A stretch of DNA of 39,309 nt from contig CALMWT010000120.1 in the NCBI GenBank assembly GCA_937870855.1, positions 1 through 39,309 on the forward strand. Reading direction: 5' to 3'. Positions 13,986-35,272 of the stretch are shown here, piece after piece (the first letter of the stretch is position 1; each line of letters starts with the position of its first letter). The notes under the pieces are model-generated. The model saw only the letters and a list, made by a program, of their open reading frames with translations, was not told the origin of the DNA and made no database searches. A program made the translations under genes and the position numbers. The DNA comes from an uncultured Taibaiella sp. Lineage in GTDB: Bacteria; Bacteroidota; Bacteroidia; Chitinophagales; Chitinophagaceae.

Positions 13986-14015
13986 TTGCTCTTTCCCCCA
14001 ACTTTTCTACATTTG
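13986..14015 (+). promoter_or_regulatory. Bacteroidota-type promoter driving the B12 riboswitch operon
   Basis: A -33 TTG (13986-13988) and a -7 TACATTTG (14008-14015) are separated by exactly 19 bases, matching the Bacteroidota sigma-ABfr consensus. Transcription would start about 14020-14022, which is where the riboswitch P1 helix begins. The agreement of these two independent signals supports both. Confidence 0.75.
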
Positions 14016-14019
14016 CCTC

Positions 14020-14184
14020 GCAAAGGTTTCCGCGCATACCGGAACGAAAAGGGAATCAGGTGCAAGTCCTGAACATTACCCGATGCTGTAAGCTTCTTTA
14101 AAAGTCTTTTGTATCTCCACGCCACTGTTTATTTGAAACGGGAAGGCACAAAAGATGAAGCAAGTCAGAAGACCTGCCTTTTGC
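14020..14184 (+). promoter_or_regulatory. Cobalamin (B12) riboswitch aptamer
   Basis: All conserved blocks are present in order: GGGAATCAGGTGCAAGTCC, then CATTACCCGATGCTGTAA, then GCCACTG with GGGAAGGC after a short loop (about 14124-14147). The B12 box AAGTCAGAAGACCTGCC is at 14162-14178. The ends GCAAAGG (14020-14026) and CCTTTTGC (14177-14184) form P1. The aptamer binds adenosyl- or other cobalamins and shuts off the downstream operon when B12 is plentiful. A stem TGCTTT/AAAGCA at about 14201-14222 may belong to the expression platform; no strong intrinsic terminator is visible, so translational control is likely. Confidence 0.93.
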
Positions 14185-14313
14185 AAAAAAATTACTTTGC
14201 TGCTTTCGGGAATAAAAGCACAGGTAAGAAAAGGCATGAGCGTTTTTGCTTTCTCTTTCTTGAAAAGTTTCCTTATTGCAGCATATAACATTGTTTCTAA
14301 AACCAAATGCTAT

Positions 14314-15309
14314 ATGCGAAAATCGTTACTCTCTTTCTTGTTTTCATTTGCTGCCATCGGTTTTGCAAATGCACAGTTTACAACGCATGTTGTAACATTC
14401 GACACCTTGAGTCTGCCAAAGACAGACACGTTTTATGTCAACTTCTCTGCGCCTGGCACAGATGTGGGCTTCTCCGATTTCGACATTTATTTTCCTTGTG
14501 TTTACGACACGGGTTGGGGAGCAAATTTCTGGAGCTATGGTTTTGCTTATTCCAATATGACGGACAGTGTTACCAGCGGATGGACTAATGATTATTCTGC
14601 AAAGACAGCGATAGGAGTGAATAACTCCAGCAACTATGCTGTTGCTTATGGTGCGTCCAATATTATAAAAAGTAAGGCCGGTACGCTTATCTGGGATGGC
14701 TTTTATTTAACCAACGGTACTTACACTTACAATAGCATGAGGGATGGCTATTTAGTAGCTAAGAAATTTGGCGGAGCAACAGGAGACGATCCCGATTGGT
14801 TTAAGCTTACAGTACGCAGGTATCTTTCCGGTCAGTTGCAGCAGGACAGTGTAGAATTTTATCTTGCCGATTTCCGCGACACGAATAATGCGAACGATTA
14901 CATCGTAAACGACTGGCAATGGTTCGGACTTGGCGCTGTTTACATGGCGGATAGTTTGCTGGTTACATTAAGCTCATCAGACACTGGCCAGTTCGGTATG
15001 AACACGCCCGGATACTTTTGTCTGGATGATCTGTCGTATAAGATTTTGCCAAACTCAATTAATAATATCGCACAAAATTTCTCCGCAAAAGTTTATCCGA
15101 ATCCCGCAAGCGATCAGCTTTTTATAGAGTTGAAAGATGCTGGAATAATAGCAGTTTCTTTAATAGACATGACCGGAAAAATATTGTCTGTGCATAAACC
15201 CGCGCATGAAAAACTAACTATTCCTGTAACTCATTTACCAAACGGTATGTACGTGTTGCAATTTGATAACGGCTCACAAAAGCAATCTGTTCGTTTTTTA
15301 AAACAATAA
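14314..15309 (+). CDS. DUF4465 surface protein with T9SS sorting domain (B12 operon)
   Basis: A 331-residue protein. I chose ATG 14314 because it opens a clear signal peptide (MRKSLLSFLFSFAAIGFANAQ). The same frame is open back to 14155, but that part lies in the riboswitch. The central domain, with GSGFAYSNMTDS-like GFAYSNMTDS, WDGFYLTNGTYTYNSMRDG, DWFKLTVRRY and VEFYLADFRD, is DUF4465. The last 80 or so residues (KVYPNPASDQLFIEL ... PNGMYVLQFDNG ... VRFLKQ) form a T9SS type A C-terminal domain, so the protein is exported and held at the surface. DUF4465 proteins recur beside btuB loci in this phylum. A role in surface B12 capture is inferred from the riboswitch and neighbours. Confidence 0.85.
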   Translation: MRKSLLSFLFSFAAIGFANAQFTTHVVTFDTLSLPKTDTFYVNFSAPGTDVGFSDFDIYFPCVYDTGWGANFWSYGFAYSNMTDSVTSGWTNDYSAKTAIGVNNSSNYAVAYGASNIIKSKAGTLIWDGFYLTNGTYTYNSMRDGYLVAKKFGGATGDDPDWFKLTVRRYLSGQLQQDSVEFYLADFRDTNNANDYIVNDWQWFGLGAVYMADSLLVTLSSSDTGQFGMNTPGYFCLDDLSYKILPNSINNIAQNFSAKVYPNPASDQLFIELKDAGIIAVSLIDMTGKILSVHKPAHEKLTIPVTHLPNGMYVLQFDNGSQKQSVRFLKQ

Positions 15310-15310
15310 C

Positions 15311-15328
15311 ATGAAACACCTTTTTTAC
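15311..15328 (+). repeat. 18-bp direct repeat, copy 1 (duplicated start of downstream gene)
   Basis: ATGAAACACCTTTTTTAC occurs here, one base after the DUF4465 stop, and again exactly at 15559-15576, where it is the real start of the next gene. Here the frame encodes only 31 residues and ends at 15406 inside the palindrome cluster. The two copies bracket the repeat array. Confidence 0.85.
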
Positions 15329-15330
15329 TG

Positions 15331-15525
15331 TGTCGTCGGGTGTTTCCACCCGACATGGCTGAAAAACGGAGGAGTTAGCATGGAATCATCAGGTGGAAAC
15401 ACCTGACGGCACACCAACGTCAGGTGGAAACACCTGACGGAACGCGCGAGGAAGAAACACCTGATGGCACACAGAGGTGGAAATACCGACTGCACACAGG
15501 AGGTGGAAATACCTGACGGCACTCG
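15331..15525. repeat. Cluster of REP-like palindromes with GAAA loops
   Basis: There are six related units. Unit A (15335-15354) is GTCGGGTG-TTTC-CACCCGAC, in inverted orientation. Unit B (15389-15406) is TCAGGTG-GAAA-CACCTGA. Unit C (15418-15439) is a perfect 9-bp stem CGTCAGGTG-GAAA-CACCTGACG. Units D (about 15448-15470), E (about 15474-15495) and F (about 15499-15520) have decayed arms. B, C, D and F keep a GGCAC tail, E keeps TGCAC, and A shows the complement of a GACAC version. The arm, GNRA-type loop and tail are typical of REP elements mobilised by RAYT transposases. No RAYT gene is in this window. Confidence 0.8.
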
Positions 15526-15558
15526 GGAACTATCATTTTAAACAACAAACGACTTCGG

Positions 15559-15576
15559 ATGAAACACCTTTTTTAC
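15559..15576 (+). repeat. 18-bp direct repeat, copy 2
   Basis: Identical to 15311-15328 and coincident with the first six codons of the surface-protein gene. Together they bracket a 230-base stretch holding the palindromes. Confidence 0.85.
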
Positions 15577-16557
15577 CTTTTACTTCTTACCTCTCACTTC
15601 TCACTTCTAACTGCCCGCGCCCAATACGCACCACAAGCAGGCGCTAATGGCACTACCGCAATTGCGGCAAGTAGTTCGCAGATAGTTTCATGGGCTACAC
15701 ACTGTACGGTAAAGCGCGGCTATCTTGATATTGCACAAGCTTCGCTTGGTTATGTTTCTTCCGGCGATAGTAGTCTTGCTTTGGGCGCAGTAGATAATTT
15801 TGTGGTGAGCCTCGGCGATAGCGGCGTGGCGACATTGACTTTCGCAAACCCAATCGTAAATGGAAATGGTTACGACTTCGCAGTTTTTGAAAATGGCTTT
15901 TACAATCCTTCCAACAGTGAAGAAGCTTTTCTGGAACTTGCTTTTGTAGAGGTGAGTTCGGATGGAATAAACTTTTTTCGTTTCCCTGCTTCATCTCTTA
16001 CGCAAACCACTTCGCAACTTTCGAGTGTAACCGGTCAAAATTATATGAATGCGCGTTGGGTGAATAACCTTGCCGGAAAATACGTGAGTAATTATGGAAC
16101 ACCTTTCGATTTGCAGGAGCTTTCAGGCATTGCAGGTTTAAACATCAATCACATCACGCATGTTCGCATTGTGGACGTAGTGGGTTCGATTGGCGAACAT
16201 GCTTCTTACGATACCGCAGGCAACAAGATCAACGATCCTTATCCTACCAATTTTCCAATCGGTGGTTTCGATCTCGATGCGGTTGGCGTCATTCATCAGT
16301 CTGCAACAAACAATATAAACCCGATAGATCGTCAGCTTGTTTTGATCTATCCAAATCCCGCGAATGATTATCTAACTGTAAAAACGGAAGAGGTACTCAA
16401 CGTTTCCTTGATGGATGTAACCGGTAAACTGTTGAAGCAGTTTCGGGTGATTGGTCAGCAAACAATTCCTTTAAGTGAATTGCAGAGCGGCATGTACCTT
16501 TTGAATTTTGTAAACAGCAAAGGTGTAAGATGGACAGAGCGTATTACCAAGCTTTAA
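15559..16557 (+). CDS. T9SS-sorted cell-surface protein of the B12 operon
   Basis: A 332-residue protein with signal peptide MKHLFYLLLLTSHFSLLTARAQ. The body domain has SLALGAVDNFVVSLGDSGVATLTFANPIVNGNGYDFAVFENGF, EAFLELAFVEVSSDGINFFRFP, GQNYMNARWVNNLAGKYVSNYGTPFDL and GGFDLDAVGVIH. These are features of an uncharacterised secreted family often annotated only as cell surface protein. The C-terminus (YPNPANDYLTVKTEE ... LQSGMYLLNFVN ... TERITKL) is a T9SS sorting domain. It overlaps the next gene, and its start is duplicated upstream of the palindrome array. Cobalamin binding is inferred from the operon only. Confidence 0.8.
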   Translation: MKHLFYLLLLTSHFSLLTARAQYAPQAGANGTTAIAASSSQIVSWATHCTVKRGYLDIAQASLGYVSSGDSSLALGAVDNFVVSLGDSGVATLTFANPIVNGNGYDFAVFENGFYNPSNSEEAFLELAFVEVSSDGINFFRFPASSLTQTTSQLSSVTGQNYMNARWVNNLAGKYVSNYGTPFDLQELSGIAGLNINHITHVRIVDVVGSIGEHASYDTAGNKINDPYPTNFPIGGFDLDAVGVIHQSATNNINPIDRQLVLIYPNPANDYLTVKTEEVLNVSLMDVTGKLLKQFRVIGQQTIPLSELQSGMYLLNFVNSKGVRWTERITKL

Positions 16558-17594
16558 TGATCGTGGTTTTTGCGGTTGCTTTCGCTTCGTGCAATAAAGA
16601 CGACAAGCAAGCGGCACCTGTAATTACGGAGGGGAAAAAGACATTTATTGTGTGCGAAGGAAGCTACGGAAATGGTAATGGAAGGCTGGATGTTTACTTT
16701 TCTGAAACCGACAGTCTTTATGAGAATGTTTATAAAAACATCAACGGCAAAAACCTCGGCGATGTTTTTCAAAGCATGACCTGGATAGGTGATAAGCTTT
16801 ATCTCGCTATCAATAATTCCGACAAGATTGTAGTATTGAATAAAGACCTTACGCTTAGTACACAGATTGCTGTTGCTAAACCGCGTTATATTTTGCCTAT
16901 CAATGAACACAAGGCTTATGTATCTTCTATGTACACCAACAAAGTGTTTGTTTTCGATCCAGCTTCGTCCACGGTAACCGGCAGTGTTGAGTTGTCTGCT
17001 ATCAATACGGAGGGAATGTTGCTGCATAATCAGAAACTTTACGTTTGTCCCTGGGATACTGCTTCCGGCAAAGTGTATGTGATCAATACAATGAATGATG
17101 AATTGGAAGATAGCTTTGAAGTAGCTGGTCGCGCACCATCGGAAGTGCTGATAGATAAGGAGCAGAAACTTTGGATTCTTTCGGGGAATGTTGCAAAGGG
17201 CAAGCCTGCTTTTTGGACGCGTGTAGATCCGAACACAAAGCATATTCTGAGAACTTATTCTTTTCCTGCCAATGCTGATCCTGTAAAGCCACTCCTGAAT
17301 AGCGCAAAGGATTCGATCTATTTTATTGAAGTGAATAATTTTTTGGGCGCGGAACACAACGGCATTTATCGCATGTCCATTCATGATAACAGTCTTCCTT
17401 CCATTCCTTTTATTCCCGCACACGCCGGACAATATTTTTGGGCGCTTGCCATCCACCCGAACGGCGATATTTATGTCGGCGATCCAAAAGGTTTTACACA
17501 GAAAAGCTCCGTGATGATTTACGATACAAAAGGAAATTTGAAAAAGCAATTCAACACGGGAGTAGGCGTAGGTCATTTCTACTTTAGCGATTAA
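16530..17594 (+). CDS. YncE/DUF5074-type beta-propeller lipoprotein (BtuG-like)
   Basis: A 354-residue protein. The signal sequence ends in the lipobox AFASC, with C21 as the lipidated Cys. Repeated propeller blades follow: SMTWIGDKLYLAINNSDKIVVLNKD, PINEHKAYVSSMYTNKVFVFDP, LLHNQKLYVCPWDTASGKVYVINT and LAIHPNGDIYVGDPKG. Two starts are possible: ATG 16530, inside the previous gene, which gives an Arg in the n-region, or ATG 16557, overlapping its TAA, which gives a very short uncharged signal. I prefer 16530. BtuG of Bacteroides is a surface propeller lipoprotein that binds B12 tightly and caps BtuB. Position right before a BtuB-type receptor under a B12 riboswitch makes this a likely BtuG counterpart. 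Confidence 0.85.
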   Translation: MDRAYYQALMIVVFAVAFASCNKDDKQAAPVITEGKKTFIVCEGSYGNGNGRLDVYFSETDSLYENVYKNINGKNLGDVFQSMTWIGDKLYLAINNSDKIVVLNKDLTLSTQIAVAKPRYILPINEHKAYVSSMYTNKVFVFDPASSTVTGSVELSAINTEGMLLHNQKLYVCPWDTASGKVYVINTMNDELEDSFEVAGRAPSEVLIDKEQKLWILSGNVAKGKPAFWTRVDPNTKHILRTYSFPANADPVKPLLNSAKDSIYFIEVNNFLGAEHNGIYRMSIHDNSLPSIPFIPAHAGQYFWALAIHPNGDIYVGDPKGFTQKSSVMIYDTKGNLKKQFNTGVGVGHFYFSD

Positions 17595-17601
17595 AGTGAA
17601 G

Positions 17602-19524
17602 ATGTTACCTAACCATATTGTTCGAAAAAATTTGAGAATAGCATTGCTTATTGCCGTGCTTTTTTCCTTTGTTGAACGAAGTGGTGCGCAAAAGAATGAT
17701 GATACTTTGAAGGAAATACACGTCCGTGATAAAAAAAATCCTTCTCAGGATGAACGCCTGAATAATTTTTCTGTCGGTCAAAAACTTACGACCATTGACA
17801 GTGTTACGTTGGAGCAATACCGAATGCAATCGGTTGCAAATTTGCTTTCGCAACAAACACCTGTGTTCATTAAATCTTATGGTCTAAACGGACTTGCCAC
17901 ATTGAATATTCGCGGTTCGTCTGCGGCACAATCGCAGGTGTTTTGGAATGGTGTGCCGATCAATAATGCGGCGCTTGGAATGGCAGATATTTCTTTGTTG
18001 CCTGTTTCGATGATTAACAAACTGCATCTCATATATGGCAGTTCAGCTGCGCTCTGGGGCAGTGGAAACATAGGCGGGGCTTTACTTTTAGAGAGTGATG
18101 CTCCTTCCTTTCAAAAAAAATTTCAGTATGAATTTGCTTTAGGAGCAGGCAGCTTCGGGCAATATCAGGCGGGAGGAAAGATTGGTTTTGCGAAAAGAAA
18201 ATTCAATTTCAGCACTAATGTTTTTGCACAAACTGCGCGCAACAATTTTAAGTATGAAAATGATCTCGGTGAAACAGAGAGGACAAGCAATGCACACTTA
18301 AATGGACTCGCACTACAGCAGCAAATCGCTTACAGGCATAATGAGAAAAGCACACTTCGCTTCATAGGTTGGTATCAAAATTATTATCGAGAAATTCCTG
18401 CTGCGATGTTTGAAGCATACTCGGAGAAAATTCGAAGAGATGAATCTTTACGGCTGATGCTTGATTGGAATCGAAAATCGTTATTGGGAAATCTTTATGC
18501 AAAAGCTGCTTTTTTAAAAGACAAAATGCACTTTGTTGACGACACGATAAAACTAAATTCGGAGAACACTTCGTATCAAAGTTTCGTGGAAGCAGGCTGG
18601 AAAAAAAGATTTTCAGAACGTCATCAATTAATGGTTTTTACGCCGTTGCAAATTTCGTGGATGAAGCCGGATACTATTCTGCGCAATCAACAGAAATACG
18701 CACTTGTAGTTGCCTATAGCTACAACGACCTTAAAGAAAAGTTCAAAGCCTCTGTGAATTTGCGTGATGAAGTGATTGATGGTTTGAATGTTTTTCTACC
18801 GGGCATCAGCGCATCGTATGCCTTTACAAAAAGCTTCACTATTCGTGCAAATTTTCAGCGAACTTTTAGAGTGCCTACATTGAATGAATTGTACTATAGT
18901 CCTGGTGGCAATAAAAATCTGAAGCCGGAAAAAGGGTGGAGTATTGATGCGGGTTACAAACTCGAAAAGCGCATCAGCAATTTTTCTTTGCTGCACGATG
19001 TATCTGTTTACAATCGCGTGATTGAGGATTGGATCATTTGGCTTGGTGGCGCAATATGGACACCACACAATATTGCAAGTGTTCACAGCAGAGGAATAGA
19101 AACAGAGAATTTATTTTCACTTGCATTGCACGACTGGAAATTGTACCTCGGTTTTAATGCTTCCTACATTGCTGCAACTACTATGTCAAGTCATATTCCC
19201 AATGATGGAAGTATTGGTAAACAAATTCCCTACACACCAAAATATTCCGGTCAGCTAAATGCAGGCTTTGGTTTCCGTTCGCTGTACTTCAACTACAACC
19301 ATACTTACACCGGACTTCGATACATGAATGTGGATGAAACCGGCGCTATCAATGCTTACCAAACAAGCAATGTGCAGGCAAGCTACTTGCTAAAACTGCG
19401 AACGGATTCTCTTTCATTTTCCGCACAAGCAAACAACATTTTCAATGCCTCCTATCAAGTTGTAAACGCCCGACCAATGCCGGGCGTGAACTGGCTTTTT
19501 AGCCTGAGGTTTTCGTCAAGGTAG
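17602..19524 (+). CDS. btuB: TonB-dependent outer-membrane cobalamin receptor (BtuB-like)
   Basis: A 640-residue protein, with a GTG at 17596 as a two-codon-longer alternative. A signal peptide ends RSGAQ. A TonB-box-like stretch and plug domain follow: SVANLLSQQTPVFIKSYGLNGLATLNIRGSSAAQSQVFWNGVPINNA, LHLIYGSSAALWGSGNIGGALLLES. A 22-strand-type barrel then runs to the aromatic C-terminus (WLFSLRFSSR). FRVPTLNELYYSPGGNKNLKPEKGWSIDAGY is the usual late barrel signature. There is no carboxypeptidase-regulatory domain. It is last in the riboswitch operon, 7 bases after the BtuG-like gene. It should import cobalamins using TonB energy. Confidence 0.9.
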   Translation: MLPNHIVRKNLRIALLIAVLFSFVERSGAQKNDDTLKEIHVRDKKNPSQDERLNNFSVGQKLTTIDSVTLEQYRMQSVANLLSQQTPVFIKSYGLNGLATLNIRGSSAAQSQVFWNGVPINNAALGMADISLLPVSMINKLHLIYGSSAALWGSGNIGGALLLESDAPSFQKKFQYEFALGAGSFGQYQAGGKIGFAKRKFNFSTNVFAQTARNNFKYENDLGETERTSNAHLNGLALQQQIAYRHNEKSTLRFIGWYQNYYREIPAAMFEAYSEKIRRDESLRLMLDWNRKSLLGNLYAKAAFLKDKMHFVDDTIKLNSENTSYQSFVEAGWKKRFSERHQLMVFTPLQISWMKPDTILRNQQKYALVVAYSYNDLKEKFKASVNLRDEVIDGLNVFLPGISASYAFTKSFTIRANFQRTFRVPTLNELYYSPGGNKNLKPEKGWSIDAGYKLEKRISNFSLLHDVSVYNRVIEDWIIWLGGAIWTPHNIASVHSRGIETENLFSLALHDWKLYLGFNASYIAATTMSSHIPNDGSIGKQIPYTPKYSGQLNAGFGFRSLYFNYNHTYTGLRYMNVDETGAINAYQTSNVQASYLLKLRTDSLSFSAQANNIFNASYQVVNARPMPGVNWLFSLRFSSR

Positions 19525-34123: not shown

Positions 34124-35053
34124 ATGCTGAAATATCTTGTACTCACTGCCGCTTTATTTATTTCCCTTTCTGCTTTTGCACAAAAAGCCGACAGCATTTT
34201 TGTAATCAATAATAATAACAACGGCTGGGCTATAAACTATAAGGTGAAAACCAAAGAAACAGTCTTTGATGTGGCGCGCCGGTTCTATGTGCCGCCTGCA
34301 ATGCTGGCAGATGCTAATGGCATTAGCTTTCAGCAACCGCTGCTGCCAAATGCCATCATTAAAATTCCCCTGGGGGCTTACAATTTCTTAAACGCAAAGC
34401 CGCAAACCGCCGATGCAAAACCCCTGTATCTGAAAGTAGCCAACGACGGACTTTATAAAATAGCCAAAACCAGCAACGTAAACCAAAAGACAATACAAGA
34501 ATGGAACGGGCTGATGACCAACGATGTGCGCCGAGGGCAAATATTGCTGGTGGGGTGGGTGCGCTTCGACCCTACGAACACAAACGTAGCCACGCCGCCC
34601 GTAAAAACCATAGTAAAAGACAATACAAGAATAAGAGTGGAGGAAGATGACCCATCGAACCGCCGCCGCAGATATACAGAAACCATTTACATACCCCTGC
34701 CCGACACAACGGCAAACCCGCCCGATACTTTAACCGAAGGTGAAAAACAATTTTTTGCGCAAACCCAAGATGGAACCGTGACCCTGTACGAACAAGGAAC
34801 CGCAGCATTCTTTAAACGTGCCGGAAAATCGCCCAACAATATCTTTTTTGCCTTTCACAACGTGGCCAAAAGAGGCACTATTATAAAAATTCACAACCCC
34901 GGTGCCGACAAAACCATATATGCGCGGGTAATAGGGAAGCTGCCTGTAAACGGAACGTTTCATAATGCGCTGATAGGCATAAGCAGCGACGCGCGCGCAG
35001 AGCTGGGCACTATAAGCGAAAAAATATGGTGCGAAATAAGCTACGCACCTTAA
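34124..35053 (+). CDS. LysM protein with C-terminal double-psi barrel (RlpA-like)
   Basis: A 309-residue protein with signal peptide (MLKYLVLTAALFISLSAFAQ). Two LysM repeats lie at about 36-83 (YKVKTKETVFDVARRFYVPPAMLADANG) and 100-145 (LYLKVANDGLYKIAKTSNVNQKTIQEWNGL). A Pro/Thr linker follows. The C-terminal domain (about 221-309, GTAAFFKRAGKSPNNIFFAFHNVAKRGTIIKIHNPGADKTIYARVIGKLP) has double-psi beta-barrel features of RlpA-like proteins, though the catalytic Asp is not clear. It probably binds cell-wall peptidoglycan in the periplasm. An AAGGAG lies only 3 bases ahead of the ATG. Confidence 0.82.
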   Translation: MLKYLVLTAALFISLSAFAQKADSIFVINNNNNGWAINYKVKTKETVFDVARRFYVPPAMLADANGISFQQPLLPNAIIKIPLGAYNFLNAKPQTADAKPLYLKVANDGLYKIAKTSNVNQKTIQEWNGLMTNDVRRGQILLVGWVRFDPTNTNVATPPVKTIVKDNTRIRVEEDDPSNRRRRYTETIYIPLPDTTANPPDTLTEGEKQFFAQTQDGTVTLYEQGTAAFFKRAGKSPNNIFFAFHNVAKRGTIIKIHNPGADKTIYARVIGKLPVNGTFHNALIGISSDARAELGTISEKIWCEISYAP

Positions 35054-35110: not shown

Positions 35111-35150
35111 CTCCCCTTTTTTTCTGTTTTCTCCCCTTTTTTTCTGTTTT
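35111..35150 (+). repeat. Two perfect 20-bp tandem repeats in a pyrimidine tract
   Basis: CTCCCCTTTTTTTCTGTTTT occurs twice without a gap, with a degenerate third copy (CTCCTCG...) behind it. The whole spacer from 35055 to about 35200 is almost pure pyrimidine on the + strand and gives way to a G-rich stretch (35211-35226). Confidence 0.85.
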
Positions 35151-35272
35151 CTCCTCGTTTTTCACTCCTTTATATCCTGTCCTTTGCGGGTGCTTTGGTG
35201 TTTTTTCTTTTGGGGGAAAGGGGGGAGATTTTTTACTGCGAAAATTGAAAACGACACGGTATCTTTCCAGCT

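Follow-up and report, generated by a model that had tools for sequence, protein, structure and literature searches.

The window, the whole 39,309 nt stretch of DNA analysed here, contains a cobalamin riboswitch followed by four genes on the same strand, encoding a DUF4465 surface protein, a second surface protein, a DUF5074 protein and a TonB-dependent receptor (Table 1). Vitamin B12 binding has been described for DUF4465 proteins (PMC13398666), and the riboswitch-headed set of four genes is therefore read as a B12-uptake operon. Among named relatives, a Flavipsychrobacter MAG (Chitinophagaceae) is closest.

Table 1. Features of the operon and of the junction between its first two genes (window positions)
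Feature	Position	Strand	Basis
Cobalamin riboswitch, head of operon	14007..14195	+	Rfam RF00174, 105.5 bits
DUF4465 (BtuJ-like, B12-binding) surface protein with Por_Secre_tail	14314..15309	+	Pfam PF14717, E 6.8e-43
Left 18 bp copy, ATGAAACACCTTTTTTAC	15311..15328	+	Repeat comparison
Decoy frame, 31 codons plus stop, MKHLFYCVVGCFHPTWLKNGGVSMESSGGNT	15311..15406	+	Translation
REP 1, TGTGTCGTCGGGTGTTTCCACCCGAC	15329..15354	+	Repeat analysis, unit alignment
REP 2, inverted; REPIN-like doublet with REP 1	15389..15413	-	Inverted repeat I2, 88%; fold
REP 3	15418..15443	-	Repeat analysis, unit alignment
REP 4, degenerate	15449..15472	-	Direct-repeat families D1/D2
REP 5, degenerate	15474..15497	-	Direct-repeat family D2
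REP 6, terminal tag GGCAC	15500..15522	-	Repeat analysis, unit alignment
Filler, single-copy, non-REP, 36 bp	15523..15558		Genome matches elsewhere at chance level
Right 18 bp copy, start of downstream gene	15559..15576	+	Repeat comparison
Surface protein with Por_Secre_tail, operon gene 2	15559..16557	+	PF18962; homologues adjoin DUF4465 in relatives
DUF5074 protein (BtuG-like by operon context)	16530..17594	+	PF16819
TonB-dependent receptor (BtuB-like by operon context)	17596..19524	+	PF00593, PF07715

The DUF4465 gene and gene 2 are separated by 249 nt, within which lie six REP units, and these palindromes are bracketed by two copies of ATGAAACACCTTTTTTAC that are identical at 18 of 18 positions and spaced 248 nt apart. 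The DUF4465 stop codon (TAA, 15307-15309) is followed by a single C and then by the left copy, which opens a decoy frame; the right copy is the true start of gene 2, the full reading frame of which is kept. An earlier sequence-only reading had described each of these features, namely the exact duplication around the palindromes, the one-base offset from the stop, the genuine start at the right copy, the intact downstream gene and the 31-codon decoy, and all were borne out by sequence comparison and translation. The tag of the first palindrome (TGTG, 15329) abuts the left copy without a gap, and 36 bp of filler lie between the tag of the last palindrome (GGCAC, ending at 15522) and the right copy. 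No donor for this filler was found in the same genome beyond chance-level matches. A longer, diverged duplication, pairing the 36 bp tail with the end of gene 1, was considered and rejected (p ~0.06). Elsewhere in the window, a direct repeat of around 24 bp with 20 bp spacing, CTCCCCTTTTTTTCTGTTTTCTCC, is present at 35111-35155, and an exact 18 bp direct repeat, AAAAGACAATACAAGAAT, is found at 34485 and 34615 within the open reading frame 34124-35053.

The palindromes are REP-like elements of a known kind, with REP 1 and REP 2 forming a REPIN-like pair and four more REPs following. The unit, of around 26 bp, consists of a GTGN tag and the sequence GTC(A/G)GGTG-TTTC-CACC(T/C)GAC, with tag and loop setting its polarity; in most units the tag is located 5' of the TTTC-loop strand, which is the polarity of a REP. 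REP 1 and REP 2 are complementary across 25 nt (88%) and pair with one another in the predicted RNA fold of the region, which is far more stable than that of shuffled sequences (z -6.0). Such inverted REP pairs are the arrangement seen in REPINs and BIMEs, and a homologous pair occurs on contig C25.

Dispersed, mainly extragenic palindromes of 20-40 bp are typical of REPs, and the unit is found at around nine loci in this genome, the others (around eight) being on contigs C25, C33 (both ends), C88, C173, C185, C192 and C209. The C25 locus carries a homologous composite cluster, composed of a TTTACTGTG-REP, GAGTTAGCAT and inverted REPs, with no flanking repeat; both this cluster and that of the window start directly after TTTAC, which may be a sequence preferred as target or may itself belong to the element. 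At both ends of C33 and on C192 (L032:1-120, L033:870-1027 and L038:860-1010), REPs are fused to another repeat, GGTCC..GCCATTGCTACTATT..GCTTTTCCCCC, which seems to represent a second composite repeat in the same genome. The same units are also present in genomes G122, G394, G421 and G159; in the six other genomes of the genus, matches were found only when two mismatches were allowed, and in some of these the number was approximately equal to that obtained with a reversed-pattern control.

In the five same-genus genomes with complete junctions, the gap between the DUF4465 gene and gene 2 is -4, 2, 4, 4 and 11 nt, and it ranges from -4 to 86 nt in more distant relatives, two gaps there being exactly 1 nt and some falling between 28 and 86 nt. 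A GGTG..CACC hairpin is absent from all 14 distinct junctions of relatives in which the two genes are adjacent. Set against the 249 nt and six REPs of the window, these palindrome-free junctions and small genus gaps support the view that the cluster is an insertion between the DUF4465 gene and its neighbour in the window lineage, in agreement with the original suggestion that it had entered a tight operon. From comparison of these junctions, gene 2 most likely began directly after the stop of gene 1 prior to the insertion; this arrangement is one that we infer, because the proteins compared are just 44-63% identical.

A check of other genomic copies for flanking repeats had also been suggested; no flanking direct repeat beyond chance was detected at 12 further REP loci in four genomes, half of the loci being in the window's own genome and half in three others, with both C33 contig ends left out. 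Judged from these flanks, the duplication is peculiar to the window copy and not a signature of the element. Hence, in the proposal of an insertion accompanied by target duplication, the insertion is upheld by the palindrome-free relatives, whereas duplication as a habit of the element is not supported by these loci or by the 36 bp tail. The family does not fit a DDE transposon or MITE with target-site duplications, most copies of which have direct repeats on their flanks, a flanking repeat being present at one of 13 loci, that in the window. For two REPs of G122, a search for empty sites across 15 genomes from the genus of G122 met with flanks that were too diverged.

The best overall explanation, in which we have reasonable though not complete confidence, is a REPIN-like insertion of REPs that separated the two genes by 249 nt and left the 18 bp repeat as a one-off by-product. 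A REPIN-like cluster would have entered between the DUF4465 gene and gene 2 in the window lineage, its REPs probably having once been mobilised by a RAYT (HUH Y1) transposase, a broken copy of which remains beside one REP. The repeat most likely arose during this one insertion, either as staggered ends were repaired or through template switching; such an event would have left an extra 18 bp copy of the start together with 36 bp of filler, the spare copy keeping gene 2 whole. A duplication of the target at the time of insertion, or a separate and later 18 bp duplication, fits the data almost as well. That GTGN-tagged REPINs of Chitinophagaceae, as a family, can insert with duplication of an adjoining gene start, sparing the downstream gene, seems improbable.

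A true target-site duplication would mean that a 230 bp element, spanning 15329-15558 and thus taking in the 36 bp tail, was inserted at an 18 bp staggered cut. The exact repeat does directly bracket the insert, and the empty site so reconstructed (TAA C ATG) agrees with the junctions seen in relatives, including two with the same 1 nt gap; we nevertheless regard this as rather unlikely, as the 12 other REP loci lack a flanking repeat, the homologous C25 cluster has no such tail after its last REP as a shared unit, and the simple model leaves the right-hand 36 bp of non-REP DNA unexplained. Furthermore, 18 bp would be a long target duplication for a DDE enzyme. Enzymes of the IS200/IS605 type, to which RAYTs are related, are reported not to generate larger target duplications (PMC2817692). 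Alternatively, the 36 bp spacer, being non-REP and directly preceding the true start, could be ancestral, with the left 18 bp copy added separately through, for example, palindrome-promoted slippage or template switching. Palindromes do promote template switching, but an ancestral gap of around 37 nt would be unusual for a genus with junctions of -4 to +11 nt, even though more distant relatives do include gaps of 28-86 nt, and we therefore consider this more doubtful still. The T6 run within the repeat and the draft nature of the assembly (211 contigs) might suggest coincidence or an assembly artefact; however, when the surrounding 1 kb was simulated 2000 times with a first-order Markov model, the longest exact repeat reached 18 bp only once, even before requiring either the start codon position or contact with the palindromes, and the locus is inside a 39 kb contig, where an 18 bp repeat alone would not confuse assembly. 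Such an origin is thus highly improbable.

Sequence comparisons support a link between the GGTG..CACC hairpin class and RAYTs. Homologues of the broken RAYT on C173 in G086, G097 and G094 have inverted GTTGGTG-N4/5-CACCAAC hairpins on both sides, and that in G011 on one side; NHLH and YIHxNP motifs are present in the RAYTs of relatives. The hairpins at the RAYT genes of three relatives are related to, yet distinct from, the window REPs, with the GGTG..CACC core in common. No hairpin was found at 11 other Y1_Tnp loci, and of 49 loci selected without reference to a REP, just three had one, with stems of 6-7. For the exact unit of the window, the link is tentative and comes from one broken gene: a single REP in this genome, on C173, adjoins a RAYT remnant. 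This REP lies around 30 bp upstream of the Y1_Tnp/RAYT gene, which carries a frameshift and stops short of the catalytic tyrosine. Sequence comparison of this remnant with solved structures revealed no convincing relative. In G086 (L137:640-1440), around eleven TTGGTG-TCC(C/T)-CACCAA hairpins are located upstream of the RAYT gene and one inverted copy downstream. Separately, a tandem duplication of around 2 kb in the window's own genome (L112; C185:62000-67000) contains two identical Y1_Tnp genes.

The decoy start now follows the stop of gene 1, and a long RNA hairpin is predicted between the genes; translational coupling of gene 2 may consequently be weaker. Neither a terminator nor a sigma-70-type promoter was found in 15200-15700, Bacteroidota promoters being of another type. 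These data document a REP cluster within a riboswitch-controlled B12-uptake operon, the downstream gene start of which has been preserved by duplication, and tie a Chitinophagaceae REP family with a GTGN rather than GTAG tag to RAYT-type transposases. As the mechanism of REP insertion is poorly understood, clean insertion junctions are useful.

Like the REPs and REPINs associated with RAYTs (TnpA_REP), the elements of this family are short tagged palindromes, dispersed, mostly intergenic and arranged in inverted pairs or clusters. Typical REPs usually exceed 100 copies, whereas this family has far fewer, at around nine loci, with the sole adjacent RAYT broken. The listed units carry GTGC, GTGG or GTGT, and thus do not belong to the GTAG-tagged REPs. 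CGTC-tagged REPs have been reported from Bacteroidetes among other phyla (PMC3733652), and CGTC is likewise found at one palindrome end in the window units; however, the tag of those REPs is unpaired, whereas the CGTC seen here is base-paired to GACG within the stem, which sets the window units apart from that family. The Bacteroidetes RAYTs of TnpA_REP subclass 2.6, or RAYT group 5, have atypical hairpins on their flanks, further copies of which are found at other places in the genome (PMC6006769); by description, the hairpin-flanked RAYTs of relatives resemble these, while the remnant in the window's own genome differs in being truncated. The operon itself, with its cobalamin riboswitch, DUF4465, DUF5074 and TonB receptor genes together, matches the B12-uptake operons of Bacteroidetes (btuB, btuG, btuJ), except that here a REP cluster splits the first two genes.
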